A DNA stretch of 42,336 nucleotides from Lachnospiraceae bacterium (GTDB lineage: Bacteria > Bacillota > Clostridia > Lachnospirales > Lachnospiraceae), in assembly GCA_024405155.1 (NCBI GenBank), contig JAKSPC010000017.1, positions 1-42,336 on the forward strand, in the 5' to 3' direction. Position 1 is the stretch's first letter. The number at the start of each line of letters is the position of its first letter. The translations under genes were made by a program, and so were the position numbers. A model generated the notes under the pieces. The model had not been told where the DNA came from. It ran no database searches and was given only the letters and a program-made list of their open reading frames with translations. Shown here piece by piece: positions 225-41,423 of the stretch.

Positions 225-463
225 GTCAGCCAGAAAACAGAAACGCCCGATTTTGGCTGACCGGCATTTTCTCATTGCGCCGGCTGAAATTTCAGAAATA
301 CATATAATTGGCCGTTTTCTGCCATATTATATGCAAAAAAACCGGTTTTTCGGCAGCGGGATACATATAATTGCCCCTTTTTCGCTGAATTATATGTATG
401 TCACCCCTTGTCCCCGGCTAAAATATACATATAATAGCGCGATTTTTTTCGTATTATATGTAT
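225..463. repeat. Phased palindrome array A (4 units)
   Basis: Four 37-39-bp inverted-repeat units lie between the tRNA promoter and the 3' end of nudC. Units 1-3 have left arm ATACATATAAT at 298, 361 and 425 and right arm ATTATATGTAT (or ATTATATGCAA) starting exactly 28 bp later, at 326, 389 and 453, enclosing 17-nt T-rich loops. Unit 0 has an unrelated stem, GTCAGCCA (225-232) with TGGCTGAC (254-261), extendable to 11 pairs with one G-T. Its centre (243) is 74 bp before that of unit 1 (317), the same distance seen in arrays B and C. Following steps are 63 and 64 bp. There is no convincing coding potential. The rest of 89-224 shows nothing I can name, and 464-545 holds only GC-rich inverted repeats (GGGCGCC 484-490 with 502-508). 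Confidence 0.85.
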
Positions 464-485
464 GGGGACCATTCACACGCCCCGG
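263..485. repeat. Duplicated 223-bp block, copy 1 (partner 9881-10103)
   Basis: This block aligns without gaps to 9881-10103 at a constant offset of 9618 bp. By eye I count nine substitutions, so about 96% identity. It covers units 1-3 of array A plus the linker before unit 1. Identity stops abruptly just downstream of unit 0, whose stem differs completely between the two arrays. No terminal inverted repeats, target duplications or transposase accompany either copy. Confidence 0.85.
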
Positions 486-545
486 GCGCCGAGTAAACTC
501 AGGCGCCCCGGAGCACGCACACGCCGCAATTCACCCGGGCGTTTT

Positions 546-1370
546 TTATTTCGGATAGTTTCCCGTGCGGAAGGCTTCCATCATGGTGGCGGTGAGGGAG
601 AAGAGGCTCTCCTGCACCGGCATTTCGTCCCGGGAGAACCATCGGGCCTCCGCCAGCTCATCTTCTTCCACCGTAATGGTATCGTCCCCGTCCACGTCGC
701 AGAAAAAGCCAAACAACATGCTGTCGGAATAAGGCCAGGGCTGACAGTTATAATAACGCAGATTCTTTACGCGAAGCCCCGTTTCTTCCATGACCTCACG
801 GCGCACGGTGTCCTCGATGGGCTCCCCGATCTCCGAAAATCCGGCAATGAGCGCCCAGCGGGCATAGCCCCGTTTGTATTTGGAGCAGACGATCCGGTCG
901 CCGTTCGTGATCCCCACGATGGCCACGGGACTGATGCGGGGGTACACGGTCATACCGCAGCCCGGACACACCATGGCCCGTTCCTTTTTAGAATGCTCCA
1001 TCTTTCCGCCGCAGCGGCCGCAAAACCGGTTGGAACGGTACCAGCGGTCCAGGGAAGCGCCGGTGGCGTGGGCAAAAACCGTATCCGCGGGAAGATCGGT
1101 GCGGCTGCGCACGTTGTCCTCCAGCACGTAGTCCGTGCCTGCCGGAAAGTCCTCCGTACACAGATAGTATTCCGTCTCGTCGATGGAAAAGAGATAGGTC
1201 AGCGGTCCTTTTCCGCCCCGGGCCCTGTATTCGGCACAAGTCATGTGTGTGCCGTCCGCGCCCAGATAGCCGCCCTTTCCCTCGTAGCAAAGCACGCGCG
1301 CAGATGGAGCCGGCACGGCGTCCGGTTTGTAATGATTGTCGTATTTGTGAGGAAAAATATCCTGAAACAT
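546..1370 (-). CDS. nudC: NAD(+) diphosphatase NudC
   Basis: NudC is a Nudix hydrolase that splits NAD(H) into NMN(H) and AMP, and in several bacteria removes NAD caps from RNA. All family marks are visible in the 274-residue product. There is a zinc ribbon with C117, C120, C135 and C138, a Nudix box from about G177 to L199 with its REVMEETGL core, and the NudC-specific motif after it (QPWPYSDS, 210-217). The length matches the family. It is the last gene of a minus-strand run mutY - small ORF - PLP enzyme - MBL hydrolase - nudC, starting 18 bp after the MBL stop. Its 3' end faces palindrome array A; no T-rich terminator hairpin is obvious there. The context suggests nucleotide-pool and DNA maintenance together with mutY. 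Confidence 0.95.
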   Translation of the reverse strand: MFQDIFPHKYDNHYKPDAVPAPSARVLCYEGKGGYLGADGTHMTCAEYRARGGKGPLTYLFSIDETEYYLCTEDFPAGTDYVLEDNVRSRTDLPADTVFAHATGASLDRWYRSNRFCGRCGGKMEHSKKERAMVCPGCGMTVYPRISPVAIVGITNGDRIVCSKYKRGYARWALIAGFSEIGEPIEDTVRREVMEETGLRVKNLRYYNCQPWPYSDSMLFGFFCDVDGDDTITVEEDELAEARWFSRDEMPVQESLFSLTATMMEAFRTGNYPK

Positions 1371-1388
1371 AAACAGCCTTCTTTCCTG

Positions 1389-4821: not shown

Positions 4822-4861
4822 TGTTATACTTTTGTTGTATGAAACTATGGAGGAATTTCTG

Positions 4862-5758
4862 ATGAAGTACATTTCGACAGCCGAAGCGGCAGAAAAATGG
4901 GGCGTTTCCGAACGCAGCGCGCGCGGATACTGCGCCGAAGGGCGGATCGCTGACGCATTCCTTACCGGAAAAACATGGAATATTCCGGAAACGGCAGAAA
5001 AACCTCTGCGCGTAAATAAACGCGATGAATCACCGAAGACCCTTACGGAAGTTCTGAAAGCAGAAAAAGCGGCAAAAATGCCCGGCGGGATCTATCACAA
5101 AGTTCAGATCGATCTGACCTATAATTCCAACCATATAGAAGGCAGCCGTCTTACCCACGATCAGACCCGTTACATCTTTGAAACGAACACTATAGGAGTG
5201 ACCGACGCGGCGATCCGGGTGGATGATGTTGTCGAAACTGCCAACCATTTCAAATGCATCGATATGATCATCGACAGTGCGGCACACAGGCTCAGCGAGG
5301 CATTTATCAAGCAGCTCCACGCGGTTCTTAAGAGCGGAACATCCGATTCCCGGCTCGACTGGTTTGCCGTCGGTGACTACAAGAAACTTCCCAATGAAGT
5401 CGGCGGTATGGAAACGACTGCGCCCGAAAAAGCAGGCGCAGAAATGAAGAAACTGATTGCCGGGTATAATGCCATGGCAACCAGAACTTTTGACGATCTT
5501 CTGGATTTTCATTACCGTTTCGAACGGATCCACCCGTTTCAGGACGGTAACGGCAGGATCGGCAGATTGCTTCTTTTTAAGGAATGCCTGCGAAACAATA
5601 TCGTGCCGTTTATCATTGAAGACGATATCAAGATGTTTTACTATCGCGGGCTGAAAGAGTGGCCGGTGGAACGCGGATATCTGCGGGACACCTGTCTTTT
5701 TGCACAGGATAAGTTTAAGAAATCTCTTGACTACTTCCGGATCCCGTACGAAGAGTGA
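4862..5758 (+). CDS. fic: Fic family protein with N-terminal DNA-binding domain
   Basis: Fic enzymes usually AMPylate target proteins. From the ATG at 4862, with GGAGG at 4849-4853, the product has 298 residues. Residues 1-45 form an excisionase/MerR-like winged helix (STAEAAEKWGVSERSARGYC). The autoinhibitory motif S-x-x-x-E-G is at 89-94 (SNHIEG), placing it with inhibitory motif N-terminal to the Fic core (class II). The catalytic motif HPFQDGNGRIGR is complete at 224-235. The intact motif and the built-in inhibitor suggest a regulated, active enzyme. The DNA-binding domain and the palindrome at its promoter suggest autoregulation. No separate antitoxin gene is present. A longer reading from 4832 would bypass the ribosome site and is rejected. 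Confidence 0.93.
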   Translation: MKYISTAEAAEKWGVSERSARGYCAEGRIADAFLTGKTWNIPETAEKPLRVNKRDESPKTLTEVLKAEKAAKMPGGIYHKVQIDLTYNSNHIEGSRLTHDQTRYIFETNTIGVTDAAIRVDDVVETANHFKCIDMIIDSAAHRLSEAFIKQLHAVLKSGTSDSRLDWFAVGDYKKLPNEVGGMETTAPEKAGAEMKKLIAGYNAMATRTFDDLLDFHYRFERIHPFQDGNGRIGRLLLFKECLRNNIVPFIIEDDIKMFYYRGLKEWPVERGYLRDTCLFAQDKFKKSLDYFRIPYEE

Positions 5759-9840: not shown

Positions 9841-10081
9841 TTACATACAAATCCGGCAAATCATCGCAAATTATATGCAAGGCGTTTTCTCATTGCACCG
9901 GCTGAAATTCCAGAAATACATATTATTGGCCGTTTTCTGCCGTATTATATGCAAAAAAACCGGTTTTTCGACAGCGGGATACATATAATTGCTCCTTTTT
10001 CGCTGAATTATATGTATGTCACCCCTTGTCCCAGGCTAAAATATACATATAATAGAGCGATTTTTTTCGTATTATATGTAT
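9841..10081. repeat. Phased palindrome array B (4 units)
   Basis: This array lies in the 374-bp gap between the FAD gene start and the 3' end of the cyclase gene. Units 1-3 have left arms at 9916, 9979 and 10043 and right arms at 9944, 10007 and 10071, steps 63 and 64, exactly as in array A. A degenerate unit 0 (TTACATACAAA at 9841-9851, ATTATATGCAA at 9870-9880) lies about 74 bp before unit 1 by centres. Units 1-3 belong to the duplicated block shared with 263-485. In unit 1 an arm base has changed (ATACATATTAT). In that unit the right arm ATTATATGCAA pairs with G-U on minus-strand RNA, whereas the plus strand would have A-C. Confidence 0.85.
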
Positions 10082-10115: not shown

Positions 10116-10706
10116 TTACAGGTCGAAAAGAATCGCCCGGCACGGCGCGCCGTCGGCGTGTCCCAGATTCAGCGGCGCGCAGTTTAAGAAATACGCCCCG
10201 TCCGGCACATTCTCCAGCCGGATCCCCTCCAGCAGAACGACCTCCGCCCCCAAAAGGATCTTGTGGACCGCCATGGGCGCGTCCTCCGGCCCCACGGACT
10301 GGGACTCGTTTCCCAGAAGGTCGATCCCGGCCCCGGCAAAGACTTCCGCCGCTTCCGAAGTGACGACTGCGTTTCCTTTGATTAAAAGGCGCTTCTCCGC
10401 GCCGGGCACCGCCGCAGCTGCCTTTTCCAGCATCCTTTTCGCATCTTCCGCCGAAACGTCCCCTTCATGGCTTACCACATACGCTTTCCCCGCGAATTTC
10501 CCGAGGGCGATCTCGCCGATGCCTTTTTTGTCATTCAGAAAATGCAGCGGCGCATCCACATGGGTTCCGTTGTGGGCGCACATGGAAAACACTGTCATAT
10601 TATAAAGATCGCCGTTTTCTATACTTTCCGCTGTTTTTCTTTCCGGCGCCGGATCCCCCGGATACACGCAGCATCCGAAAACCGGCTGTGAAATATCGTA
10701 TATCAT
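10116..10706 (-). CDS. Cyclase family protein (kynurenine formamidase-like metal hydrolase)
   Basis: The 196-residue product belongs to the cyclase/arylformamidase family (PF04199), manganese- or zinc-dependent amide and lactone hydrolases. The signature H-x-G-T-H-x-D-x-P-x-H-F is intact as HNGTHVDAPLHF at residues 45-56, with a further conserved region GNESQSVGPEDAP. I chose the ATG at 10706 because the protein family starts there (MIYDISQPV) and a purine-rich ribosome site (GGACAGG) precedes it; a longer reading from 10790 is not family-like. The true substrate could be N-formylkynurenine, isatin or a sugar lactone. It diverges from the RpiR-type regulator at 10901 and may be under its control. 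Confidence 0.88.
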   Translation of the reverse strand: MIYDISQPVFGCCVYPGDPAPERKTAESIENGDLYNMTVFSMCAHNGTHVDAPLHFLNDKKGIGEIALGKFAGKAYVVSHEGDVSAEDAKRMLEKAAAAVPGAEKRLLIKGNAVVTSEAAEVFAGAGIDLLGNESQSVGPEDAPMAVHKILLGAEVVLLEGIRLENVPDGAYFLNCAPLNLGHADGAPCRAILFDL

Positions 10707-10837
10707 GAAATATGACCTGTCCTCTCCTGCTTCCTGCGGTCTCTTTCCCCGCAGGATACTGTGGTTCCTCTGACCGTAAGTGTACTGCATTCCGGCGGAT
10801 CACACAACAAGATCCCGTTATTCTTTCTCCAAGGCGG

Positions 10838-17936: not shown

Positions 17937-19328
17937 TTATTTAATTTCTACCACATTAAAACCCATCATTGAACCAAACGCCTTGATTTCTTCTATGTCC
18001 GCATCATAAATCATCGCCGAATGATGAGTCCCGCCTGCCAAAGAATACTCTCTTAGGAACTCCTTTAAAGGTTTGCAGGTTTTGAACCAACCCTGTGTAG
18101 CTTTTGCATATGCACCATAGCGAAGGCCGCAATCAAGCATTTCCCCTTCTGTTACGATCAGAGTATAACTGTCATCCATCGGTGCCAGATTAATGTATAT
18201 CACTTTTCCTTTCCGATAGCAGTTATACATTCCCGTCGTGTTCCCGCATTTATTGATCGTAAATTTTTTGTCTGTAATAAGCGGCTGCCAGCTACCAAGA
18301 TTAGGATTACTTTCTGCCATGTGGCTTAAAAGAATCACATTTTCCTTCCAATCAGGGCAAAACATCTCTGTAAAGGTTGTGTTGGGATAAACGCTCAGCA
18401 GAGCACCAACCAGGCCCGCAGTCAACACATCGCCTTCCCCTGCGTACCCCTGCCTTCTTTCCAGAATCTTGCAGCACTCGACAAACGGCATTTTCGGAAG
18501 ATTGTATTTGTCAAGGGAGAGGAAATTTATCGTACACGCCCCCAGATCGTTATCATTCATCCATTTTCGAACAGCAAGTCCTGATCTTGTTGAAGCTTTA
18601 TAATTTTCCGTATCCGTGACCTGTACGTCGTATTTTTTCTTGTCGGACCGGATCTCATCTTCGACTTCTTTGTCGGTTACCCGGGCAACATAGCGTTCTG
18701 CCTCTTCGGGAGTCATATAGGCAATTTCCGCGCCGATGTCCCTTTTAATGCGATCATCGGGTATCTGAAAATCACCCATCCCGTAAAAAGCGCCGCCCAC
18801 GGAACCGATTTTTATGTTTCGAAAACTCTTAACAACAGCTGCCGCACGGCACATTCCGATCACTTCACTGATCACTTCACTGTGAAACGCGTGCCCGACG
18901 CAAAGATTGAAAGCACGATGGTTTCTTTTCAAAAGCGTACACATATCTTGTACGCCGTGTATTCCATGATTCATTCCGATCCGGTTGGAATACTCCGCAG
19001 TTTCAATCAGTTCATAATCAGGTGTAGTATCCAGCACAATAATAGGTGCTGCTATGCTGAGAAGTGCCTGAATGGATTCCAATGAAGGTGAATACGCCAA
19101 ATGGTAGGTGACCACAGCTGAAACATCTTCATTATTGAACATATTTGCAGCCTTCGAAAATTCTTCCGCTGTCCGACAGACATCTGCTTTCACTAATTCC
19201 AGTCCCTGGCTCTCCAGCATATCCGCCAACACGTTTGCATAAGCTTCCCTTGGAATACGGGAAGCCGGGTTGGAATCGTCATACATCTTTATATACAACG
19301 GCAAAAAGCCAATCTTCAATTTACTCAT
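17937..19328 (-). CDS. L-arabinose/L-fucose isomerase-like protein
   Basis: At 463 residues this resembles the L-arabinose isomerase/L-fucose isomerase superfamily, which interconverts aldoses and ketoses with a Mn2+ ion. Four metal-ligand candidates fall in the expected order: E298 in AGEGD, E321 in FTEMFCPDW, H336 in LLSHMAE, and His 435/436 in AGGTHHSAM. The similarity to true AraA is distant, so the sugar is unlikely to be simply arabinose. It is the last gene of the nine-gene AT-rich operon, 18 bp after the amidohydrolase. With the FGGY kinase two genes earlier it forms a classical isomerase-kinase pair for a released sugar. The ribosome site AGAAGGA precedes 19328. Confidence 0.8.
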   Translation of the reverse strand: MSKLKIGFLPLYIKMYDDSNPASRIPREAYANVLADMLESQGLELVKADVCRTAEEFSKAANMFNNEDVSAVVTYHLAYSPSLESIQALLSIAAPIIVLDTTPDYELIETAEYSNRIGMNHGIHGVQDMCTLLKRNHRAFNLCVGHAFHSEVISEVIGMCRAAAVVKSFRNIKIGSVGGAFYGMGDFQIPDDRIKRDIGAEIAYMTPEEAERYVARVTDKEVEDEIRSDKKKYDVQVTDTENYKASTRSGLAVRKWMNDNDLGACTINFLSLDKYNLPKMPFVECCKILERRQGYAGEGDVLTAGLVGALLSVYPNTTFTEMFCPDWKENVILLSHMAESNPNLGSWQPLITDKKFTINKCGNTTGMYNCYRKGKVIYINLAPMDDSYTLIVTEGEMLDCGLRYGAYAKATQGWFKTCKPLKEFLREYSLAGGTHHSAMIYDADIEEIKAFGSMMGFNVVEIK

Positions 19329-19346
19329 AATCCTTCTGCCCTATTT

Positions 19347-21904: not shown

Positions 21905-23275
21905 TTATTCTCTTGGAATCTCCGGCCTTAACTCTTCCGGCAGCGGGCAGACATAACCCCTTCCCGTCTGTTCCCGCAGTTCTTTCCAGGCCATTTTGAT
22001 AAGGTTTGGATCCTCCATTAATCTAATTGCGGTACCCGCAACAGATTTTCCTGCATACAGCATTGCTTTTTTAGCGTATGTTGATTTTCCCTGTGATACC
22101 GCCTGCCAGCTATGTCCTGGTGTTCCGATACACCAGGTCCCTATATGCATCTGTACGGTAGGACAATTCCAACTGACATCTGCAGTATCCGTAGAACCAC
22201 CATGATCCTTAGGCGGAGCCGGAGAAAGAAGGCGTTCTGCATAAACCGGTCCGGAAAGATCCGCCTCGCTTAAGTTCATGGTTTTCCGTAAAGCTTCTCC
22301 AAACTCCAGCTCTTTTTCTGATGCCATTGGGAACTCTGTATCCTTCATGGCACTGTAAGCGGTCTCCTGCAGCGTCGGTATCGTGATCAGGTTGGAATAA
22401 GCAGCTGTTATTCTGCTGGAAACAGAAGTTTCCGTCATCATGGCTGCTCCTTGTGCGACCTTGTCAACTCTCGCTTTCAAGGCTCGCACGGCATCATTAT
22501 CGATCGCACGGATCATATATTTCACTTCCGCATGCGCCTGAACCACATTGGGAGCGGTTCCGCCGCTGTCGATCACGGCATAATGAATCCTGGATGTTGT
22601 ATCCATGTGTTCTCTCAAATAATTGCAACCTACATTCATCAGCTCGACTGCATCCAGCGCGCTTCTCCCTTTTTGCGGGCTTCCGCCTGCGTGCGCGGCG
22701 ATTCCGTCAAAGTGGTAGACGACCATAACATTGGCCAGTGAACGTCGGGTCCTGACCATATACATCTTCTCCGGATGCCAGCTTACTATTGAATCGATAC
22801 CTGAAAAAACTCCTGCACGGGAAAGGAAAACCTTTCCTCCACCGTTTTCTTCTGCAGGACAACCGAAAAGCGTAACACTGCCTTTTCCGGTTTTCAATAT
22901 ATACTCTTTCAAAGCTAATGCAGCTGCAAAAGACCCTCCGGCAAACAAGTTATGGCCACACCCATGACCCACATCAGGGCCGGGGATCTTTTTGGGGTTA
23001 ACTTCGCCTGCTTCCTGATTAAGCCCATCCAACGCGTCAAACTCAGCAAGTATACCGATTGCGGGATGCCCGGTTCCGAAAGTTGCCTTAAAAGCAGTTG
23101 GAATATCCGCAAGACATGTTTCCACAACAAATCCTTCTGCGTTCAGCGCTTCAGCAAGGATCCCAGATGACTGATATTCCCGAAATGATGTTTCGGCATG
23201 ATTCCAGATCTCATCGGAAACCCGGAAAATTTCCTGCTTCTTTTTGTCTATGACGGACAAATAGTCTTTATACAT
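21905..23275 (-). CDS. M20 family amidohydrolase (AbgB-like)
   Basis: This M20/M28-fold metallopeptidase-type enzyme has 456 residues. It contains LAEFDALDGL, the metal motif GHGCGHNLF and a dimerisation domain, like AbgB (p-aminobenzoyl-glutamate hydrolase subunit) and N-acyl-amino-acid amidohydrolases. It cleaves an amide between an amino acid and another group. The ATG at 23275 overlaps the last base of the upstream ATPase stop (TGATG), a sign of coupling, and GGAAAGGG precedes it. It sits between importer and sugar-kinase genes, so its substrate is probably what the importer brings in. A paralogue lies at 31030-32406. Confidence 0.88.
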   Translation of the reverse strand: MYKDYLSVIDKKKQEIFRVSDEIWNHAETSFREYQSSGILAEALNAEGFVVETCLADIPTAFKATFGTGHPAIGILAEFDALDGLNQEAGEVNPKKIPGPDVGHGCGHNLFAGGSFAAALALKEYILKTGKGSVTLFGCPAEENGGGKVFLSRAGVFSGIDSIVSWHPEKMYMVRTRRSLANVMVVYHFDGIAAHAGGSPQKGRSALDAVELMNVGCNYLREHMDTTSRIHYAVIDSGGTAPNVVQAHAEVKYMIRAIDNDAVRALKARVDKVAQGAAMMTETSVSSRITAAYSNLITIPTLQETAYSAMKDTEFPMASEKELEFGEALRKTMNLSEADLSGPVYAERLLSPAPPKDHGGSTDTADVSWNCPTVQMHIGTWCIGTPGHSWQAVSQGKSTYAKKAMLYAGKSVAGTAIRLMEDPNLIKMAWKELREQTGRGYVCPLPEELRPEIPRE

Positions 23276-24234
23276 CAATGCCCTTTCCGAACCTCACAAC
23301 AGGCAACAAAATGCCCCGGTGTCACTTCAATGAGTTCAGGTTCTTTTCTTCTGCACTCTTCCGTGCAGAACTCACATCGCTTTGCAAATCTGCACTCATT
23401 AGGCGGATCTATCGGAGAAGTTATTTCACCTCGAAGGATAATGCGCTTCCTGTTTTCAATGATCTCAGGAATCGGTATGGCAGAAAGCAATGCCTTTGTG
23501 TATGGATGCAGTGGATTCTTGAATAACTCTTCAGACGGTGCTTTCTCCACGATCCTGCCAAGATACATTACGGCGATTTCATCCGCCAGATGATGTACCA
23601 CTGCCAGATCATGTGTGATGAACATATAGGTAATTCCCTTTTCCTTCTGAAGCTTACGCAGCAGATTCAGTATTTGTGCCTGGATCGATACATCCAGAGC
23701 TGAAACAGGTTCATCGCATACGATGAACTTCGGATCCATTGCCAAGGCACGTGCGATACCAATACGCTGGCGACGGCCACCATCCAACTCATGCGGATAA
23801 GTGTTGATCAGCCTCTCACTCAGACCGACAGTATCCATAAGTTCAAGCACACGCTCTTCAATTTTTTCCCGACTCTGAATCAAATGCTGTGTAGTAATCG
23901 ATTCCGAAATTGTTTCAAATATGGTCTTTCTTGGGTCCACAGAAGAAAACGGATCCTGAAAAATGATCTGCATATCCTTTCTGGCTTTTCTCAATTGTGT
24001 TCTTCCGAGCCTGGCAACATCAATCCCTTCAAAGAACACACTGCCGCTTGTTGGCTCGATCAATCTAAGGATTGTTCTTCCAAGAGTAGATTTTCCACAA
24101 CCAGATTCACCAACTATACCAAGCGTTTTGCCGCGTTCCAATGTAAAGCTTACATCGTCAACGGCATGCAGCGTTCCTTTTGGCGTAGAAAAATACTTGT
24201 TCAGATGTTCAACTCTCAATAATGTATCAGCCAT
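23275..24234 (-). CDS. Oligopeptide ABC transporter ATPase (DppF/OppF-like)
   Basis: The 319-residue ATPase carries Walker A GESGCGKST, a Q loop (IFQDPFSS), the signature region (LDGGRRQRIGIARAL) and Walker B (FIVCDEPVSALD). The C-terminal oligopeptide-type extension has a Cys-rich Fe-S-like stretch (CRFAKRCEFCTEEC). The signature reads DGGRRQR in place of the usual SGGQRQR. I chose the ATG at 24234, one base after the DppD-like stop, with AGAGGGG upstream; a longer reading from 24378 runs back into the preceding gene. It pairs with the DppD-like ATPase. Confidence 0.93.
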   Translation of the reverse strand: MADTLLRVEHLNKYFSTPKGTLHAVDDVSFTLERGKTLGIVGESGCGKSTLGRTILRLIEPTSGSVFFEGIDVARLGRTQLRKARKDMQIIFQDPFSSVDPRKTIFETISESITTQHLIQSREKIEERVLELMDTVGLSERLINTYPHELDGGRRQRIGIARALAMDPKFIVCDEPVSALDVSIQAQILNLLRKLQKEKGITYMFITHDLAVVHHLADEIAVMYLGRIVEKAPSEELFKNPLHPYTKALLSAIPIPEIIENRKRIILRGEITSPIDPPNECRFAKRCEFCTEECRRKEPELIEVTPGHFVACCEVRKGH

Positions 24235-24235
24235 A

Positions 24236-25246
24236 TCAACGATCCCCTCTTTCAATGTGGAACCCTTCCTGCTCATATGCGGTGCAGGCAACCATATGGG
24301 TATCACTGATCCAGTGCTCTTCTGGCTGCTTTTCCTTGCACGCCTCTGTTGCATAGCGGCAACGCGGTGCAAACGCACATCCTTTCGGAAGATTTGTAGG
24401 ATCGGGCATCTGACCGGGAATAGGCGTCAGCTCTTCTACACGACAATTGATATTAGGAAGCGAATTAAACAGACCTTCTGTATATGGATGTCTTGTGTGA
24501 TTGAAAACATCCTTCAAAGTACCCTGCTCAACGATACGACCGGCATACATCACGGCCACATCATCACAGACTTCGGCAATGATTCCCAGATCATGCGTGA
24601 TCATTATCATGGCCATATTGTACTGAGCTTTCAGATCCTTCATAAGTTCAAGGACCTGTGCCTGTATTGTTACGTCCAGAGCTGTTGTCGGTTCATCTGC
24701 AATAAGAATGGATGGATTACACGCAAGCGCTATTGCAATAACCACCCTCTGCCTCATGCCGCCCGAAAACTGGTGGGGATACTCATTTGCTCTCTCCCGG
24801 GGTATGCCGACGGTCTCCAGCATATCCTTGGCTTTTTCAACTGCTTCCTGACGGGAAATATCCAAATGAAGCAGAAAGCTTTCGGCAATCTGATCTCCCA
24901 CTGTTTGGACCGGATCCAGAGATGTCATCGGATCCTGGAAAATCATTGAGATCTCGTCACCGCGAATCTTCTGCATTTTTTGAACAGGAAGATCCATAAT
25001 GTTTTTATCATTAATAATGATCTCTCCGCTTTCAATAATTCCCGGCGGATCCGGCACAAGGCGCAAGGCGGCAAGTGCCGTTGTCGTTTTTCCGGCGCCC
25101 GTCTCACCAACTAATCCCAGTGTCTGTCCTGCATTTAGTGACAGATTCACATTGTTAACGGCACGGACTACTTCCCCGTCCACATCAAATCTTACAGTAA
25201 GGTTCTTGATTTCCAAAACTTTTTTGATTTCGTTTTTTTCAGGCAT
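24236..25246 (-). CDS. Dipeptide ABC transporter ATPase (DppD/OppD-like)
   Basis: At 336 residues this has Walker A GETGAGKTT, Q loop IFQDPMTS, the ABC signature FSGGMRQRVVIAIAL, Walker B ILIADEPTTALD, the H loop ITHDLG, and the oligopeptide-family C-terminus with CAFAPRCRYATEAC. It powers the peptide-type importer as a heterodimer with the DppF-like protein. AGGAGG precedes 25246. The gene lies 11 bp after the DppC-like gene. Confidence 0.94.
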   Translation of the reverse strand: MPEKNEIKKVLEIKNLTVRFDVDGEVVRAVNNVNLSLNAGQTLGLVGETGAGKTTTALAALRLVPDPPGIIESGEIIINDKNIMDLPVQKMQKIRGDEISMIFQDPMTSLDPVQTVGDQIAESFLLHLDISRQEAVEKAKDMLETVGIPRERANEYPHQFSGGMRQRVVIAIALACNPSILIADEPTTALDVTIQAQVLELMKDLKAQYNMAMIMITHDLGIIAEVCDDVAVMYAGRIVEQGTLKDVFNHTRHPYTEGLFNSLPNINCRVEELTPIPGQMPDPTNLPKGCAFAPRCRYATEACKEKQPEEHWISDTHMVACTAYEQEGFHIERGDR

Positions 25247-25257
25247 TTCGAACCTCC

Positions 25258-26157
25258 TTACTTTCTGAGCTTCGGATCGAGCGCATCACGAAGTCCGTCT
25301 CCCACAAGGTTAAAAGCAAGTACGGTAACCATGATGGCAAGACCGGGGAAAAGTGTCATATAAGGCTTTGTACGCACGTAGGTCCTGCCTGCAGACAAAA
25401 GCGCTCCCCATTCCGGTGACGGTGGCTTGACACCGAGCCCAAGGAAACTGAGGGATGAAGCTGCAACGATGGCAGAAGCAATACGCAGCGTAACCTGTAC
25501 GATAATTGGGCTCAGACAATTCGGTAAAATATGTGAAAAGATAATTTTTGCTTCACTCTGACCAATTGCGCGGCCCGCTTCCACATATTCCTGATTTCGA
25601 ACTGTCAGAACAGCGGCTCTCGTAATCCGCACAAAGGAAGAAATACTGGTAAAGCCGAGCGCCAGGATCAAGTTCATCGTACTTACACCGAGAGCCGAAA
25701 CAATGGCAATACCCATGAGAATATGCGGAATGGATCCGCATATATCAGTTGCACGCATAATCACGTCTTCTATCGCTCCGCCAAAGTATCCAGCAATGCA
25801 TCCAAGCGTCATACCGACAATAAGGCCAATCAGCGTGGCCATTGCTCCAACAGAAAGTGATGCTCTGGACCCATATAGCACACGAATAAAGATATCACGC
25901 CCCATCTCATCCGTACCAAACAGATGTTCCATGCACGGTTCTTTCATGCGGTTAGCGATATCCATTGCGGTAACCTGTGTATCATAATCAAATAAGACAT
26001 CAGCAAACACCGCAATAAAGATGATCACAAATACAACAAAAAGACCGACCATAGCACCTTTATTCTGCTTGAAGCGACGCCATATTTCAGCAAACTGGCT
26101 GCGTTTTTTATATTTTTTCGTAACAGATTCCGAAGAAGATACAGTATTTTGATTCAT
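25258..26157 (-). CDS. Dipeptide ABC transporter permease (DppC-like)
   Basis: The 299-residue membrane protein has the N-terminal OppC-type helix (KGAMVGLFVVFVIIFIAVFADVLF), then five further hydrophobic segments. The EAA loop (EAGRAIGQSEAKIIFSHILPN), which contacts the ATPases, is at about 200-220. The region around FGTDEMGRDIFIRVLYG is strongly conserved in this family. It forms the channel with the DppB-like permease. Its ATG overlaps the DppB-like stop by 4 bp (ATGA), so translation is coupled. Confidence 0.94.
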   Translation of the reverse strand: MNQNTVSSSESVTKKYKKRSQFAEIWRRFKQNKGAMVGLFVVFVIIFIAVFADVLFDYDTQVTAMDIANRMKEPCMEHLFGTDEMGRDIFIRVLYGSRASLSVGAMATLIGLIVGMTLGCIAGYFGGAIEDVIMRATDICGSIPHILMGIAIVSALGVSTMNLILALGFTSISSFVRITRAAVLTVRNQEYVEAGRAIGQSEAKIIFSHILPNCLSPIIVQVTLRIASAIVAASSLSFLGLGVKPPSPEWGALLSAGRTYVRTKPYMTLFPGLAIMVTVLAFNLVGDGLRDALDPKLRK

Positions 26158-27110
26158 TTCTTTTTCCTCCTTCCGGAATTTGCGAATCTTGCACGAACTC
26201 TGGGGTCTACTGCCGCGTAAAGAAGATCGACAATGAGAATAATGACACTGCCGATAAGTGTCTTCAGGATAAGTAAACCGGTTACTGTAGTCACATCCCG
26301 TCCGTTAATTGAGTCGATCAGCAATCGACCTGTTCCGGGCCATGCAAAAACGGTTTCTGTCAATGCAGAACCGCCGAGTACACCGGCAAACTGTTCACCG
26401 GCTACTGTCAGGATCGGGATCATTGCATTTTTTAACGCATGTTTCCAGATGACGATTTTCTCGCTTGCGCCCTTTGCGCGAACCGTCCTCAGGTAATCCT
26501 GATGTATGACATCCAACATAGAAGACCTTGTGGTTCGCCCCAAAGCAGCCGTTAAAGATGTTCCTATCGTTATGGCCGGAAGGATCAGGCTCTTAATCGT
26601 TCCATCATCTCCGTTGGACGGAAGCCATCCGAGTTTCAGCGAAAAAACTATGATCAGCACCAGGCCAAGCCAGAAATTGGGAATAGAAAGGCCTAATAGC
26701 GTGCCAAAGGAAGCCACATTATCAATAACCGTACCATCGTGGACCGCTGAAATAATACCCAGAGGAATGGAAATAATTATTGAAACCAATACGGAGGCTA
26801 TGGCAAGTCTTGCTGTACTGCCAATACGTGCCATAAACATATCCATAACAGGCTCACCGGTAGCCTGAGAAATACCCAGATCTCCCTGAAGCAGCCGTCC
26901 CATATACTTAAGATATCTCACCGGCAGCGGTTGATTTAAACCATATTGCTCATAAAGAGCTTCGATCTGCTCGGCGGTCATATTATTATCGCCCATTTTT
27001 AAAAGGACAATGTCTCCGGGCGCGATATCCATCAGAAAATAAATGAGGAAGGATACACCAATAATAATAGGGATCAATTGAAGTATCCTTCTAAGGCAAT
27101 ACCGCCACAC
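26154..27110 (-). CDS. Dipeptide ABC transporter permease (DppB-like), GTG start
   Basis: The 318-residue permease begins MWRYCLRRILQLIPIIIG, as DppB/NikB proteins do. It has about six membrane helices and the EAA-type loop (RAKGASEKIVIWKHALKNA). The start codon is GTG (27108-27110) with AGGAG upstream. The segment DIAPGDIVLLKMGDN is the usual family turn after helix 1. It follows the binding-protein gene after about 100 bp that hold a stable hairpin. Confidence 0.94.
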   Translation of the reverse strand: MWRYCLRRILQLIPIIIGVSFLIYFLMDIAPGDIVLLKMGDNNMTAEQIEALYEQYGLNQPLPVRYLKYMGRLLQGDLGISQATGEPVMDMFMARIGSTARLAIASVLVSIIISIPLGIISAVHDGTVIDNVASFGTLLGLSIPNFWLGLVLIIVFSLKLGWLPSNGDDGTIKSLILPAITIGTSLTAALGRTTRSSMLDVIHQDYLRTVRAKGASEKIVIWKHALKNAMIPILTVAGEQFAGVLGGSALTETVFAWPGTGRLLIDSINGRDVTTVTGLLILKTLIGSVIILIVDLLYAAVDPRVRARFANSGRRKKK

Positions 27111-27150
27111 TTTGTTCTCCTTTCTGAAAAGGTTTCTTGTTTAACCACAT

Positions 27151-27183
27151 GGACTGTGACGCACAGAACGCGCATCACAGTCC
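27151..27183 (-). promoter_or_regulatory. Intercistronic hairpin after the binding-protein gene
   Basis: GGACTGTGA (27151-27159) and TCACAGTCC (27175-27183) form a perfect 9-bp stem with a 15-nt loop, between the binding-protein and permease genes. No T run follows on the minus strand, so it is unlikely to be a full terminator. In many importer operons such a hairpin stabilises the upstream message, which allows excess binding protein. Confidence 0.65.
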
Positions 27184-27211
27184 GAATTATTACATTGAGT
27201 TTGGTTAAATA

Positions 27212-28831
27212 TTACTTTTCAACTTTGGCATATGCAAATTCCATAACGCCTCTGCTCTCCCACTTTACGCCGGAGACTTTCTTGTTATACGCAATTGCTT
27301 TTAATGCATAGTACATCGGATATGCAGGACACTCTTCATGAATGATCGACTGGATCTCCTTGTACATTTCGTAACGCTTTGCTTCGTCAGTTTCTACCGC
27401 ACACTGCTTAAACAGTTCATCAACTCTGGCATTTGACCATCCCATCTGGTTGGTACCACCATCGGTGACAAATGTCTCTGAGAAGCTGTTTCCTGCATCT
27501 GTATAAGCAACGCTTGCCAGATAAGCCTGCCATTTGTCTTCCTGCTTTGCTGCCGCACGACCTGCACTGTCAGTTTTATCAAGCTCAACAGTTACGCCAA
27601 TATCTTTCCACTGACTCTGAAGGATCTGAGAAATGATCTCTCGCTGTCCTGTTGTAAACTGGATCGTTACAGTCGCACCGTTAGGATATTTACTCTTTGC
27701 AAGGTATTCTTTTGCCTTATCAAGATCTCTGGTGTACTTGGACTGTCCAACCGACTCAAAATCATCAAAGAAACTTACTGCGGTAAGTGAGTTGGTCGTT
27801 GTTGCAGGAACACCATATCCACCAAGAGCACCATCAATGATCTGCTGATTATCTGTTGCATACGCAAGTGCCAGACGGAAGTTGGGATCGTCAACCGGCG
27901 CCTGATCAACGTTATAGAAAATGTAATTCAGACCGGAGGTATAAGTGAACATATCAAGTTCCGGGTTTTCTTCTACAAGACTATACTCTGAAGCATCCGG
28001 ATAAATGCAGACATCGATTTCGTGGTTCTCAAGAGCGATCAAACGGGCTGATGCTTCCGGAATCAGTCTGAAGGTGACTTTCTTGGTTACAGGAAGCTCA
28101 CCCCAGTAATCATCATTACGCACTACGGTGATATGATCTTCTGCAAAAAACTCGGAATTCACCCAGGGACCGGTGCCATATTTGTATCCGTCCTCTGCTG
28201 CGGCGCATGCCTCTTCACTTAACATGCCAAGAGAACCGGTCTTTGACATATCGATAAGGAAGTCATTGTTGACCTCTGTAAGTTTAAATACAACCGTATA
28301 ATCATCGACCTTAGTTACAGATTCGATGGTGTCAACAAAAGCTTTAACATTAGCATGTGTGGTAGGATTCTCTTTTGCGCGCTTAATAGTGAAAAGAACA
28401 TCATCCGCAGAAAATTCACTTCCATCATGGAATTTAATGCCTTTGCGAAGGTGGAAGGTATACTCAAGTCCATCCTTATTTTCCCAGGTTTCTGCAAGCT
28501 TCGGGAAGAACTCGCCTTCATAATAATGAACAAGGGGCTCATGAGTCATAAGATAGATATAACCGCTGGCAATGGCACAGTTCTCCTGAATATCCAGTGA
28601 ATTCACCTTTGTGTCAGTACCAATGATGACCTCCTCTTTATACTCGACCTCAGGAACGGCAGCTTCTGTTGCAGCAGCTTCCGTTGCGGCAGGAGCTTCT
28701 GCTTTTGCTGCTTCCGTTGCGCTTTGTGCATCAGCCTGCGTGGCAGCCGAATTGTCAGCCGCGCCGCTGCTGCATGCAACCAGTGACAATGCCATAATGG
28801 TGGCAAGAACCAATGCAAGTACTCGTTTCAT
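27212..28831 (-). CDS. Peptide-type ABC transporter substrate-binding lipoprotein (SBP family 5)
   Basis: The 539-residue product begins with a lipoprotein signal peptide; the lipobox LVAC puts the lipidated Cys at residue 20. A low-complexity Ala/Thr/Glu linker follows, then the SBP_bac_5 fold (FHLRKGIKFHDGSEFSADDVLFT is the family signature). It captures the substrate outside the membrane and delivers it to the permeases. Family members bind di- and oligopeptides, nickel chelates and also oligosaccharides, so the ligand is open. The start at 28831 has GGAGGAAA; the longer in-frame reading from 28951 crosses the promoter. It is the first gene of the nine-gene operon. Confidence 0.93.
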   Translation of the reverse strand: MKRVLALVLATIMALSLVACSSGAADNSAATQADAQSATEAAKAEAPAATEAAATEAAVPEVEYKEEVIIGTDTKVNSLDIQENCAIASGYIYLMTHEPLVHYYEGEFFPKLAETWENKDGLEYTFHLRKGIKFHDGSEFSADDVLFTIKRAKENPTTHANVKAFVDTIESVTKVDDYTVVFKLTEVNNDFLIDMSKTGSLGMLSEEACAAAEDGYKYGTGPWVNSEFFAEDHITVVRNDDYWGELPVTKKVTFRLIPEASARLIALENHEIDVCIYPDASEYSLVEENPELDMFTYTSGLNYIFYNVDQAPVDDPNFRLALAYATDNQQIIDGALGGYGVPATTTNSLTAVSFFDDFESVGQSKYTRDLDKAKEYLAKSKYPNGATVTIQFTTGQREIISQILQSQWKDIGVTVELDKTDSAGRAAAKQEDKWQAYLASVAYTDAGNSFSETFVTDGGTNQMGWSNARVDELFKQCAVETDEAKRYEMYKEIQSIIHEECPAYPMYYALKAIAYNKKVSGVKWESRGVMEFAYAKVEK

Positions 28832-28922
28832 TTTTTCCTCCTTTAAAATTCTTTTACAAAACTGTACTGCTTCATGCAAAATACCAATGTACATCATAAA
28901 AACATGACTGATATTTGTAGAA

Positions 28923-28951
28923 AATGTATCATGGTGTATTCGTTTGTACAA
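28923..28951 (-). promoter_or_regulatory. Promoter of the nine-gene ABC/M20/kinase operon
   Basis: On the minus strand, -35 TTGTAC (28946-28951), a 17-bp spacer and -10 TACATT (28923-28928) form a good promoter. The leader would be about 85 nt before the ribosome site at the 28831 start codon. Confidence 0.6.
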
Positions 28952-29180
28952 TTTTCAAATATTTATAACGGTTATGCAATTTGTTTATATGTGGTTCCCC
29001 CTAATCACACAGACATCTTTCTGTAATATCAGGGATCATTCATTTGTTAAAATTTCACAATATAAGAACGATTATATTATGCCAATTAAACGAACTCTGT
29101 GCGAATCCTGCTTTATCGCTATACATTTCCAGCGAAAATATATAATCTAATCTTATTGCCGATATTTGATGTTTTTATAA

Positions 29181-29206
29181 CGGAGCCTCTCCGCTCTTGT
29201 TATAAT
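29181..29206 (+). promoter_or_regulatory. Extended -10 promoter and small palindrome for lysR
   Basis: TGTTATAAT (-10 at 29201-29206) is an extended -10 element. Just upstream CGGAG-CCT-CTCCG (29181-29193) is a 13-bp inverted repeat placed where a -35 would be. This would suit autoregulation of the LysR gene. Confidence 0.5.
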
Positions 29207-29230
29207 GATTTTTGGAAAGGAAGTTCACAT

Positions 29231-30160
29231 ATGACAATCGAACAGTTACGGTGTATCTCTGAAATTGCGCGTTACGGGTCACTAAATAAAGCTGCCGCTG
29301 CACTTTATATTTCACAGCCGGCGCTTTCAGCAGTAGTAAAAAATCTGGAGGAGGATCTTGGCGAGCCGATTTTTACTCGTAAAAATTATGGCGTCGTACT
29401 CACCCCCTATGGCGAGTCGATCCTGCCATACATCCGCGATGCACTGAGCTGCATTGATCAGATCCCCCATCATCTTTACGGAAAAACCGCATACTCCAAA
29501 CCAAGGCTCTCCGTATGCAACGGCAACTATTTGTACTGCGCCAGAGCCCTTGCCGAAACATATCGCGCTCATAAAGACGACGGCATTTGTATCGATTTTT
29601 ATGATGTAAGCTGTGAAGAATCTCTTGAAATGGTTGCATCCGGAACCGCACAAGTCGGCGGATACGGCATGTATGATTTCCAGAAAGAACAACTCATGAG
29701 GCAGCTTGAAACAAAGGATGTGCAATTCTTTCCTCTTACCATAGCAGGAATCATGGTTTCCGTCGGACCTCAAAATCCGCTGTTCACCCGCGAGGAAAAC
29801 TGGGTCACCCTGGATATGTTACGCAAATATCCTCTTTTGTATTCATTAACTGCACACAGCACAGCACTGTATAAAAAACTCAATATTTTTTCTTCTTTCA
29901 ATATTATTACGTGCTCCAGCCGCGCCGGACGCAGAGAGCTGTACGACAATCTGGATTGTGTGTCTATCAGTTCGAAACTTTCATCGCCGTATCAGGATAT
30001 TAAGTTTTTCAAAAACCGGAGGCTGTTTCAACTTAAAGACGTGAATTACACTACAGAGATCGGTTATATTACGAAAAAAAATATTCCGATCCCGCCGATC
30101 ACGCAGGAATTTATCAACCATATAAAGGAAATGTTTATCAAACAGGATGAATTTTTATGA
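29231..30160 (+). CDS. LysR family transcriptional regulator
   Basis: The 309-residue protein starts with a clear LysR helix-turn-helix (MTIEQLRCISEIARYGSLNKAAAALYISQPALSAVVKNLEE shown in part: residues 18-36 are the HTH core). A periplasmic-binding-like effector domain follows from about residue 90. GGAAAGGAAG precedes the ATG. It is transcribed away from the ABC operon and directly into the MBL and M20 genes (16-bp and overlapping junctions), so it probably controls both arms of the module in response to the imported compound or a product. Confidence 0.92.
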   Translation: MTIEQLRCISEIARYGSLNKAAAALYISQPALSAVVKNLEEDLGEPIFTRKNYGVVLTPYGESILPYIRDALSCIDQIPHHLYGKTAYSKPRLSVCNGNYLYCARALAETYRAHKDDGICIDFYDVSCEESLEMVASGTAQVGGYGMYDFQKEQLMRQLETKDVQFFPLTIAGIMVSVGPQNPLFTREENWVTLDMLRKYPLLYSLTAHSTALYKKLNIFSSFNIITCSSRAGRRELYDNLDCVSISSKLSSPYQDIKFFKNRRLFQLKDVNYTTEIGYITKKNIPIPPITQEFINHIKEMFIKQDEFL

Positions 30161-30176
30161 ATAACCGGAGAACTCC

Positions 30177-31037
30177 ATGAAAAAAACGTATGAACAACTT
30201 GTAGACAACTACAGAAGCCATAACGCAGATTATTACATGACTCCATCACTGAAACACATGGAGCCTTTCAAACTATTCGGCCCCATATATTACGTCGGGG
30301 ATCAAATGGTCTGCGTTCATCTGATCGATACAGAAGACGGTCTTCTGCTCCTTGATTGCGGTTATCCTCAGGCGATTCATATGCTTACTGATTCGATTTA
30401 TCAACTGGGATACGATCCGCGTCAAATCAAAGAAATCATAATGACACATGGTCACTATGATCATTTTGGAGCCGCCATGGAGTTTAAACGCCTGTATGGA
30501 TGCAAACTTGCCATGAGTAAAGTCGACGCAAACTTATTGAGGGAAAAACCGGAGTTGGGACTTGCTTCTTGGACCTCGTTTGAACACTTGATCACCCTTC
30601 CGGAAATAGACCACGAGATTGAGAATGGAGAACATATTCGGCTTGGCTGCATCGATATGGAGTGCAAACTGATTCCCGGACATACCCCCGGTGCCATGGC
30701 ATTCTTCTTTAATGTTACGGAAGATGGAAGTCATTATTATCGTGCCGGAGAGTTCGGTGGAGCAGGAAAGGGAAGCGCCACCAGATGTACACTGGAACAT
30801 TTCGGAATGCCGCTGTCCCAACAGAGAGACATGCTGAAATCCATCGAAAACATGAAAAAAGAGCATGTGGATATTCAACTTGGCAATCATCCGGCAAACA
30901 ACCACACTTTGGAGAAACGTCGGGAGCAGCTCGCAGGAAACCCAATGGCTTTTCTGGATCCGGAATCCTGGTCAGGATTTCTCGCAGAAACCGAAAGAAG
31001 TTTTACTCAATTGATTGCGGAGGATAACAATGAATAA
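30177..31037 (+). CDS. MBL-fold metallo-hydrolase (subclass B3-like pattern)
   Basis: The 286-residue protein has the zinc motif HGHYDH at 91-96, PGHTPGAM with a further His, and GNHPANN near the end with the last His. The overall pattern resembles B3-type metallo-beta-lactamase relatives. It has no signal peptide, so resistance is unlikely; an intracellular amide, lactone or thioester hydrolase is more plausible. The ribosome site is CGGAGA. Its stop lies inside the start of the next gene (8-bp overlap), which means tight coupling with the second M20 enzyme. Confidence 0.87.
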   Translation: MKKTYEQLVDNYRSHNADYYMTPSLKHMEPFKLFGPIYYVGDQMVCVHLIDTEDGLLLLDCGYPQAIHMLTDSIYQLGYDPRQIKEIIMTHGHYDHFGAAMEFKRLYGCKLAMSKVDANLLREKPELGLASWTSFEHLITLPEIDHEIENGEHIRLGCIDMECKLIPGHTPGAMAFFFNVTEDGSHYYRAGEFGGAGKGSATRCTLEHFGMPLSQQRDMLKSIENMKKEHVDIQLGNHPANNHTLEKRREQLAGNPMAFLDPESWSGFLAETERSFTQLIAEDNNE

Positions 31038-32406
31038 GACGATCCTTGATTGGTACAAAAGAAACGGAGACGATGTCAAAGCATGGGCAAAAGATATCTG
31101 GGACCACTGCGAAATTGCCATGGAAGAGTACCATGCCTGTGAAGTAACGGCTGAATTTATGAAAAAGCACGGCTTCCATGTAGAGACTCTCAACTGCAAA
31201 TTTCCTGGAGAAAAGCCAAATACAGTGGTAGCTTCCTGGGGAAGCGGCCATCCTGTCATTGGATACATTGGTGAATATGATGGCCTTACCGGTATGGGAC
31301 AGGATTGTGTTCCCTATTATTCTCCAAAAGAAGGCCCCGGGCATGGCTGTGCCCACAACCTGATGTCTCCATCCTGCGGATCCGCAGCCATCGCCTGCAA
31401 AGAAGCCATGCAGGCAGAATCGCTTCCGGGCACGGTTATGTTTTTCGCGTGTCCTGCAGAAGAAACCGTAGAAGGCAAAATCTATATGGCCTCTTTAGGT
31501 TTGTTTGATAATCTGGATGTTTGTATGGCATGGCATCCACAACCAAGAAATTTAAAGATCCGTGAGCTTCGCCAGTGCTCTCTCACAAATATGAAAGTGG
31601 AATTCTTCGGTCTTGCTGCACATGCTTCGTCTTATCCCGAACGGGGGAGAAGTGCTCTTGACGCCTGTGAGATCATGAACGTTGGTGTGAACTACTTGAG
31701 AGAACATGTTGAGTCCACAACCAGAATGCATTACTCCTACATCAATGGTGGCGACAAGCCCAACATTGTACCGAGTTACGCTGCACTGCATTATTTCCTC
31801 CGCACAAAAGATCTCAAATCAAATTATGAGCTCCTGGAAAGAGTAAAAAAATGCGCAGAAGGCGCATCTATTATGACAGAAACAAAATATAAGATCACGA
31901 TTAATTCCATGGGGCCCGGCTGCATCCTGCTGAACGGATTTAATCGCTTCCTCTACGAAGCAGCCGCCAAGATACCGCAAATATCCTTTTCTGCGAAAGA
32001 TGAGGCATTTGCGAAGGAGTTGTTTACAAATATCAATGGCAGGGAGCCGGAGGAAGGCGAAGATATCATTTTCACAAAAATCGAAGAACCTACCGGCAAC
32101 CCGGTTTATGCCCCCAGCTCAACGGATGCCGGTGTAGTAAGCCGTATCTGTCCTACATCAAGGTTATTTGGCTGGGGAGAATTAAACCGGACTCCCTCCC
32201 ATTCATGGGGGTATGTTTCCTGTGCCGGAAGCGAGATTGGGCTCAAAAGTGCTGTATATGCCGGCATAGCACAGGCTCAGGCTGGTTATGAAATTGCAAA
32301 GGACCCTTCAGTCATCATACCCTGGCGTGAAGATCTTGATCAACAGTTAAAAGAAGACGGCGATTTAAAACCGATCAAGCCGAACACCGTATATTCTGAA
32401 TCCTGA
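31030..32406 (+). CDS. M20 family amidohydrolase (AbgB-like), second copy
   Basis: The 458-residue product is a paralogue of the enzyme at 21905-23275. It has YIGEYDGLTGM, GPGHGCAHNLMS (metal motif) and FACPAEETVEGK. The start at 31030 has GGAGG and lies within the end of the MBL gene; a longer reading from 31015 is unnecessary. AbgB-type enzymes often work as hetero-oligomers with a second M20 subunit (AbgA with AbgB), so the two M20 proteins of this module may pair, or handle two related amides. Confidence 0.88.
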   Translation: MNKTILDWYKRNGDDVKAWAKDIWDHCEIAMEEYHACEVTAEFMKKHGFHVETLNCKFPGEKPNTVVASWGSGHPVIGYIGEYDGLTGMGQDCVPYYSPKEGPGHGCAHNLMSPSCGSAAIACKEAMQAESLPGTVMFFACPAEETVEGKIYMASLGLFDNLDVCMAWHPQPRNLKIRELRQCSLTNMKVEFFGLAAHASSYPERGRSALDACEIMNVGVNYLREHVESTTRMHYSYINGGDKPNIVPSYAALHYFLRTKDLKSNYELLERVKKCAEGASIMTETKYKITINSMGPGCILLNGFNRFLYEAAAKIPQISFSAKDEAFAKELFTNINGREPEEGEDIIFTKIEEPTGNPVYAPSSTDAGVVSRICPTSRLFGWGELNRTPSHSWGYVSCAGSEIGLKSAVYAGIAQAQAGYEIAKDPSVIIPWREDLDQQLKEDGDLKPIKPNTVYSES

Positions 32407-34238: not shown

Positions 34239-34478
34239 ATGCATATAACAGGCGGGTTTTTCCAATATTCTATGCATTTCTTCATTCGCCGCAGAATCCC
34301 GAAAATCGTTATATACATATAATACGCGCTTTTCTTCTCTATTATATGTATTTTTTTGACTGAAACTGCCTCGGCATACATATAATTCATCCATTTTCCC
34401 GTTATTATATGTATCCACCCCGGTGCATGACCCGAATTTATACATATAATAGCCGCGTTTTCTGCGTATTATATGTAT
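34239..34478. repeat. Phased palindrome array C (4 units)
   Basis: Units start at 34239, 34313, 34376 and 34440 (steps 74, 63, 64), with right arms exactly 28 bp later at 34267, 34341, 34404 and 34468. Units 1-3 have perfect ATACATATAAT/ATTATATGTAT arms. Unit 0 has ATGCATATAAC/ATTCTATGCAT: both sides changed so that ATGCAT still pairs with ATGCAT, a compensatory difference. Loops and linkers share no sequence with arrays A and B beyond a central T run, so this is an independent copy with the same ruler. The rest of the 34061-34823 gap shows no gene: a GGCCC/GGGCC hairpin near 34119-34131, and AT-rich sequence after 34500. Confidence 0.85.
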
Positions 34479-40815: not shown

Positions 40816-40974
40816 TTCCTTACTCCCAAAATCTTTTTTTGCAGCGGTCATCCGCCGCATATTCACAAAAAGCGTTTCCGCATGAGAAACGATGGTTCTC
40901 ACCGGAAGCGCTTTTATTCTATGGTACGTTTGTGATGAAACTATGAAATCGATGTGACCGTTTGGTGTCGCTCC

Positions 40975-41211
40975 TTATCCCAGCGGGATCACCAGCTGCT
41001 GCCCTTCCCATATCACGTCGGGATCCGCAATGACGCTCCTGTTTGCCCGAAAAAGCGCGTTGCAGTCGTCACTGCCGAAATACCGCCTGGCAATGGAACA
41101 GAGCGTATCGTTTTTCCGCACCGCGTAGATTACGGGATCTTCCTCGGAAACAGCGCCCACCTTCGTATTGAACTCATAGCTGTCATCATAAAGACCCAGA
41201 ACGGCATCCAT
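40975..41211 (-). CDS. Small LysM-domain protein
   Basis: The 78-residue ORF contains one LysM domain (about residues 28-77; YAVRKNDTLCSIARRYFGSDD and a final GQQLVIPLG), which binds N-acetylglucosamine polymers such as peptidoglycan. There is no signal peptide, and the 27 N-terminal residues are not recognisable. The start at 41211 lacks a clear ribosome site. In-frame codons continue upstream into array D without a better start. It may be the surviving C-terminus of a larger protein cut by the array, or a genuine small protein. Confidence 0.6.
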   Translation of the reverse strand: MDAVLGLYDDSYEFNTKVGAVSEEDPVIYAVRKNDTLCSIARRYFGSDDCNALFRANRSVIADPDVIWEGQQLVIPLG

Positions 41212-41257
41212 GCCGGGGTTGGAAGAAAGTATTCTCCCGGACTCAGCGATGGACCCT

Positions 41258-41423
41258 ATACATATAATAGCGCCTTTTTTGCAGTATTATATGTATTTTT
41301 CCCCGATTTTTCTCTTCAGAATACATATAATTGCAGTGTTTTCGGCCGAATAATATGTATGTGAAGCAGGCTGCAGAGCTAAAAATACATATAATAAGGC
41401 GATTTCCCGCGTATTCTATGTAA
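41258..41423. repeat. Phased palindrome array D (3 units)
   Basis: Left arms ATACATATAAT start at 41258, 41321 and 41385 (steps 63 and 64). Right arms are at 41286 (perfect), 41350 (ATAATATGTAT, one base further than usual) and 41413 (ATTCTATGTAA). No unit 0 is found 74 bp upstream, where the LysM start region lies instead. Orientation is the same as arrays A-C, judged from the 63-then-64 order and the T-rich loops. Confidence 0.82.

Follow-up and report, generated by a model that had tools for sequence, protein, structure and literature searches.

Phased palindrome arrays beside a nuclease-like gene in Lachnospiraceae: a candidate two-part repeat-spreading system

What are the evenly spaced palindromes that stand between the genes of a Lachnospiraceae bacterium, and is there a protein to which they belong? 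In the present study, this question was raised by a stretch of 42,336 nt (the window), which is the entire contig C9 of a 2.03-Mb genome in 46 contigs (G000). Four intergenic arrays were found in it (Table 1). The palindrome unit is 39 bp long and consists of ATACATATAAT, 17 nt and ATTATATGTAT, with inverted 11-bp half-sites that start 28 bp from each other.

Palindrome arrays of the window and their distribution

The initial annotation of this DNA had described 11-nt inverted arms 28 bp apart, and the description was well borne out: arms with no more than one mismatch numbered 21 in the window, whereas 100 dinucleotide shuffles yielded 0.36 on average and never more than 2. It had also claimed five array loci, of which four were recovered; a blind detector, which missed two of 11 known positive stretches (L176 and L183), gave no fifth in the window. 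The two pitches between full units are the same in arrays A, B, C and D, and a degenerate outer unit precedes arrays B and C. The loop length proved near-constant as claimed, except for one 18-nt loop in array D. The supposed free variation of loops and linkers in sequence did not hold, as arrays A and B derive from a single element and have since diverged, and the linkers of G000 fall by eye into three sequence groups; the constancy of linker length did hold (24-25 bp in all three groups).

About 73 bp ahead of array A, positions 225-261 carry an inverted repeat, GTCAGCCAGAA/TTTTGGCTGAC, with arms unrelated to those of the arrays. The stretch 18001-32000 is array-free and has a G+C content of 0.43-0.47, compared with 0.49-0.59 elsewhere in the window; its genes were read as a peptide ABC transporter, an amidohydrolase-like and a kinase-like gene. 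A Fic-domain protein with a helix-turn-helix at the N-terminus is encoded at 4832-5758 (+) according to Pfam.

Table 1. Arrays and partner gene of the window, and half-sites at three further gene loci
Feature	Position	Strand	Description
Array A, solo	298..463	no strand	Units 298-336, 361-399, 425-463; pitch 63, 64 bp; linker group I
Array B, solo	9841..10081	no strand	Degenerate unit from 9841; units 9916-9954, 9979-10017, 10043-10081; pitch 75, 63, 64 bp; diverged copy of A
Array C, gene-linked	34239..34478	no strand	Degenerate unit 34239-34277; units 34313-34351, 34376-34414, 34440-34478; pitch 74, 63, 64 bp
Unnamed-family gene, P0001, 275 aa	34824..35651	+	345 bp right of array C; C-terminal domain, putatively PD-(D/E)XK-type
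Array D, solo	41258..41423	no strand	Units 41258-41296, 41321-41360 (18-nt loop), 41385-41423; pitch 63, 64 bp
L230			Half-sites ATGTGAGCCGG; array flanks gene on both sides
L237			Half-site TTCCGTCAAAA
L238			Half-site GCCTGCTAAAT

The initial annotation had proposed a pattern search of the genome and its relatives, and this search was fruitful. There are 24 exact units in G000 and none of a reversed control pattern. When the window and 16 further stretches were read, 21 array loci with 74 units were obtained, one of which (L080) overlaps a predicted gene. Ten of these arrays lie between co-directional genes (array B was counted here, with a cyclase gene matched by Pfam at 10116-10790), four between divergent and five between convergent genes, and two were left unassigned.

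Among 298 other genomes of the bacterial family, one further genome (G275) has true arrays with the same arms. None was seen in 24 congeners, and in 398 genomes of the phylum the same-arm pattern was confined to G000, apart from a single unit in G702. Arrays with related arms were found in Candidatus Treponema equifaecale (G715) and an uncultured Treponema (G716); these were traced from a scan of named contigs, in which ten stretches came up and the two Treponema loci were arrays. The other stretches were dismissed as chance single units from their arm listings and, for L047, L048, L050, L053 and L055, also from the sequence. Viral contigs gave 36 stretches with a single unit each and no array. 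Arrays with other arms were sought in 759,658 bp from 13 congeners, where the same detector, with its two misses in 11, gave one AT-rich match that was taken as false, and shuffles gave none. Between genomes the pitch varies (62-64, 73-74, 84-86, 92-96 and 103-106 bp) and is near whole helical turns. In G716, several arrays at L178-L181 are flanked by small genes that were read as acetyltransferase-like or otherwise cassette-like, an arrangement that recalls integron cassettes.

Most examined copies of a nuclease-like gene have an adjoining array

The gene to the right of array C was picked out by comparing array-neighbouring proteins across genomes, and it is the only one of five G000 copies that adjoins a ATACATATAAT array. 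Its protein was matched by neither Pfam nor NCBIfam, and 16 relatives gave scattered weak matches in profile libraries, each in one member only. PD-(D/E)XK-type profiles of PADLOC matched the C-terminal part of all 16 relatives; by candidate profile, PDC-S68 matched 16, PDC-S69 11 and HEAT_CxxC_PDDEXK eight. In the alignment of the 16 relatives, K170, E172, P201-D202-F203 and E217 are invariant. The E and PD motif residues of PD-(D/E)XK nucleases are conserved, and the third motif reads E-H and not E-x-K in 15 of 16. A structure model built from two sequences has a mean pLDDT of 48.6 and is too poor to confirm the fold, and no relative by sequence was found among solved structures. From the motif residues and the PADLOC profiles, the protein probably carries a PD-(D/E)XK-type nuclease domain. 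The initial annotation had seen no relevant enzyme nearby, which this gene contradicts; as for Cas proteins, none was seen by reading among the window proteins inspected, six of which were scanned against profiles.

In a sample of about one genome per genus of the bacterial family, a profile search found this protein family in 115 of 299 genomes, and it is also present in the two Treponema genomes. Of 14 chosen genomes, G000 has five matches, G715 four, G716 ten at seven places, G310 two and G316 one, which is partial. The gene was not found in the other nine, G275 among them; the arrays of G275 thus stand without a detected gene in an assembly that is 77% complete. In viral contigs, none of 28 pattern matches to the family was confirmed. 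Three putative faecal phage records were matched; one of them (MT839528.1, with 90% coverage and 32% identity) has no visible array upstream. Eight plasmid records matched in the nuclease domain only. These plasmids come from other phyla; six carry AAA-type, RecD/RecQ-type or helicase annotations, one is RecQ-like and one is unannotated.

The PDC-S68 and PDC-S69 matches suggest a role in defence, in which foreign DNA is the target of the nuclease, and the arrays keep the enzyme under control or sequestered. We consider this improbable, because the match is limited to the nuclease domain and the solo arrays are left unexplained. To our knowledge, the PDC candidates of the PADLOC library are themselves putative defence proteins, which also counts against it.

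The association of gene and array was examined at family-gene loci in other genomes. With the stricter blind detector, arrays were found at 21 of 30 loci and at none of 227 three-kb congener pieces or 30 shuffled loci. At further copies of the gene, looser detector settings, run without a control, gave arrays at 10 of 14 loci, with half-sites mostly unlike ATACATATAAT. The detector thus gave no array at 9/30 and 4/14 loci, respectively. Weaker arrays were added by eye at L241, L242 and upstream of the L180 gene, and none was visible at L231, a truncated gene copy, or at L243, which lies at a contig end. In total, a half-site could be named at 38 of 47 gene loci, at least five of which are weak (L241, L242, L244, L248 and L259), and up to 31 half-sites were counted within a 900-bp flank by the half-site scan. 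Several unlike array classes coexist in one genome. These results show that most examined gene copies have an adjoining array, with a half-site mostly particular to that copy.

The six gene-linked arrays that were printed are tandem repeats, in which the sequence between half-sites is nearly identical from unit to unit. At L264 (2365-3260), there are three half-sites and not two per 75-bp unit. The array of L242 (5935-6165, in the congener G310) seems by eye to mix GAATCGA and GGCAACGA half-sites.

At 32 of the 38 named loci the array is upstream of the gene; at three it is on both sides (L230, L232 and L262) and at three downstream. Such a position would suit operator arrays, by which the protein mainly regulates its own gene while solo arrays regulate their neighbours, and there is general precedent for phased operators that are bound cooperatively. 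This explanation is nevertheless unlikely. The nuclease residues are invariant, 5 of the 21 arrays of G000 sit between convergent genes, and the flanking genes have no evident common function by reading; for the last reason, a regulon defined by common neighbours was rejected.

Half-site conservation, phasing and co-divergence

In the 74 units of G000, half-site positions 2, 4, 6 and 7 are invariant on both the left and right arms. Covariation was assessed by permutation of right arms among units. The number of matches between the left and right arms of a unit was 729/814 in G000 (permutation mean 729.9), 124/143 in G275 (126.1) and 109/143 in G715 (107.3). As the arms of G000 are free of within-unit covariation, they behave as DNA half-sites and not as RNA stems. 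The exception was G716 (19 units, three of them misregistered), with 168/209 matches against 145.4 and none of 5000 permutations as high, and the excess is due to the three outer arm bases (50/57, permutation mean 25.8). In the G716 arrays L178 and L181, the outer trinucleotide differs between arrays and is common to the units inside one array (TGT in every unit of L178). Since the outer trinucleotide tends to be particular to an array, we prefer to read this matching as common descent within arrays.

An RNA stem was rejected on the lack of covariation in G000, G275 and G715, G716 being opposite, and we find arrays of RNA hairpins or guide RNAs hardly credible. No array has a match in Rfam, where the sole match, a sub-threshold narK at 18661-18734, lies away from the arrays. 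Furthermore, the nearly identical sequence between half-sites in the six gene-linked arrays leaves no unique spacers, and it is not evident what helical phasing would mean for an RNA. In favour of RNA are the pairing that each unit could form, the matching outer arm bases of G716 and other non-CRISPR repeat arrays with nucleases, which are on record in the available part of PMC10910872. The initial annotation had proposed an RNA or DNA-binding element; the DNA half of this proposal is upheld and the RNA half is not. Invariant bases, the lack of covariation in three genomes and whole-turn spacing support the palindromes as DNA-binding half-sites.

The spacing was evaluated in 34 of the 38 arrays, and the modal pitch was 53-55, 62-64, 73-74 or 84-86 bp and once 125 bp. 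The value of 55 at L264 comes from its three half-sites per unit, and that of 125 from the mixed array L242. The pitches were coherent at a period of 10.3-10.5 bp (R=0.87), and none of 20,000 random sets was as high. The 12 distinct pitch values alone gave R=0.84 (0/20,000), which is the safer figure because some loci are related.

Half-site similarity tracks protein identity over the 38 loci (Mantel r=0.22, 0/5,000 permutations), and the signal comes mainly from the close groups L250/L257/L269 and L258/L259/L265. By domain, r was 0.26 for the C-terminal and 0.19 for the N-terminal part. Specificity seated in the N-terminal domain was rejected, as the half-site signal is no stronger there than with the nuclease domain.

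Chromosomal sites such as parS and matS load or anchor complexes that structure DNA, and phased arrays could serve in the same way. Helical phasing and the dispersed, intergenic position of the sites, with no orientation preference, would agree with this role. We hold it to be a poor candidate, however, as the pattern is patchy (one of 25 genomes of the genus), unlike array classes lie side by side in one genome and the exact units are confined to few contigs.

Spread of the arrays and comparison with known systems

Arrays also occur away from the gene. The class of the window gene has solo arrays at 20 further loci of G000, and in G716 there is a second class, TTCCGTCAA, with 13 units. Four of these stand at the gene locus, and contigs C236, C253 and C255, where no family gene was found, have three apiece. 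No TTCCGTCAA array was present in G715 or G000. The 0.25 Mb examined for the other three classes of G000 yielded no additional array; dispersal is shown for some classes and not for every class. Family genes lie near contig ends at 12 of 30 loci, with 3.9 expected, an excess that is as expected of repeated DNA. In eight related copies, whose flanks were aligned by eye, homology stops about 20 bp beyond the outer arms and no target-site duplication, as would go with a MITE, was seen. The gap between rfbA and rfbB is 314 bp with an array in G000 and 82 bp at the best-matching congener locus, and it ranges from 12 to 449 bp over 16 congener loci; as an empty site it is suggestive only. Patchy presence, solo arrays, two-sided arrays, the diverged copies A and B and the excess at contig ends would speak for mobility; the missing target-site duplication and the rfbA-rfbB gap are neutral or count against it.

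We lean towards a two-part system, in which a nuclease-like protein is paired with a cognate phased array and solo arrays are non-autonomous copies. On the association of gene and array, the palindromes would be double-stranded DNA recognition sites of the cognate PD-(D/E)XK-domain protein, which probably binds as a dimer to the two inverted half-sites of one unit. Several dimers may assemble along one helix face, as the phasing suggests; dimers so placed would account for a pitch that measures 5 to 10 turns of the helix. Gene and array together would form the autonomous unit, and its non-autonomous copies would be the solo arrays, among them A, B and D. If arrays were cut or nicked and then repaired from another array copy, this could lead to array spread and to homogenisation of units. 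A wider claim is advanced tentatively, and it may well be otherwise: that this is a selfish two-part element of a new class, widespread in a single large family of gut bacteria and found also in Treponema, whose PD-(D/E)XK nuclease both recognises its own helically phased array and copies it, whose specificities co-diverge, and of which mutually blind systems coexist in a genome, each seeding solo arrays.

No description of the gene-array pairing was found in the main texts of the open-access journal articles that were searched, and the pairing looks like an undescribed repeat-spreading system. In this way, an unnamed nuclease-like protein family is tied to a repeat architecture not found in print in that literature. 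The 38 named loci are natural pairs of protein and half-site, with which a recognition code can be tested directly, and nuclease-site pairs that are orthogonal could serve as tools. If the system moves or marks DNA, it would answer, independently and for a second time, the REP problem of how an enzyme and the dispersed palindromes that match it come to share a genome.

Homing endonuclease genes are patchy, free-standing and tied to a long recognition site. The patchy, free-standing nuclease gene and its long site are alike here, whereas here this site takes the form of a repeated, phased array, which flanks the gene on one side or on both and also has copies without the gene. Plasmid iterons with their Rep protein, and operator arrays, are phased binding repeats beside the gene of their binder. 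The present arrays are likewise phased and next to the gene of the presumed binder, but they have inverted half-sites, a putative nuclease domain and dispersed chromosomal copies. Iterons are direct repeats, unlike these half-sites, and no replication-initiator domain was found by Pfam in the 16 relatives. The half-sites are also unlike CRISPR, being inverted and not direct repeats, and in the printed gene-linked arrays the intervening sequence is repeated and not made of unique spacers. The doubts that the initial annotation had raised about CRISPR, REP and iterons were justified as far as the analysis went.

According to the available text of PMC12045711, TIGR-Tas has one effector gene with an adjoining array, a repeat that varies by locus, a Nop domain, and edge repeats that alternate with loop repeats around unique spacers of 9 nt. 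The array adjoining a single effector gene and the change of repeat sequence from locus to locus are common to both. Measured against that text, they differ in that Pfam gave no Nop match in the 16 relatives and the present arrays have no edge/loop alternation with 9-nt spacers. Judging by the text of PMC10910872, its non-CRISPR repeat systems are unlike the present one in their protein and in the anatomy of their arrays.

The closest likeness in function is to the REPtron of RAYT (TnpA-REP) and REP. In the parts of PMC8266576 and PMC3733652 available to us, REPtrons are described as a gene with cognate palindromic repeats nearby and genome-wide copies, in element-specific pairs. Here too, repeats stand beside the gene and are dispersed, as in the ATACATATAAT class of G000 and the TTCCGTCAA class of G716. 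In contrast, the enzyme of the REPtron is a HuH (Y1) tyrosine transposase, and here it is predicted to be PD-(D/E)XK-type from 16 of 16 relatives, in which Pfam found no Y1 transposase. The 38 half-site consensuses have no common GTAG (or CGTC) tag, GTAG being inside those of L249, L270 and L271. Moreover, G000 has no sign of a single-strand hairpin constraint, and the present arrays are helically phased. The best reading is that the system may work like a REPtron, built from parts that appear unrelated to it.
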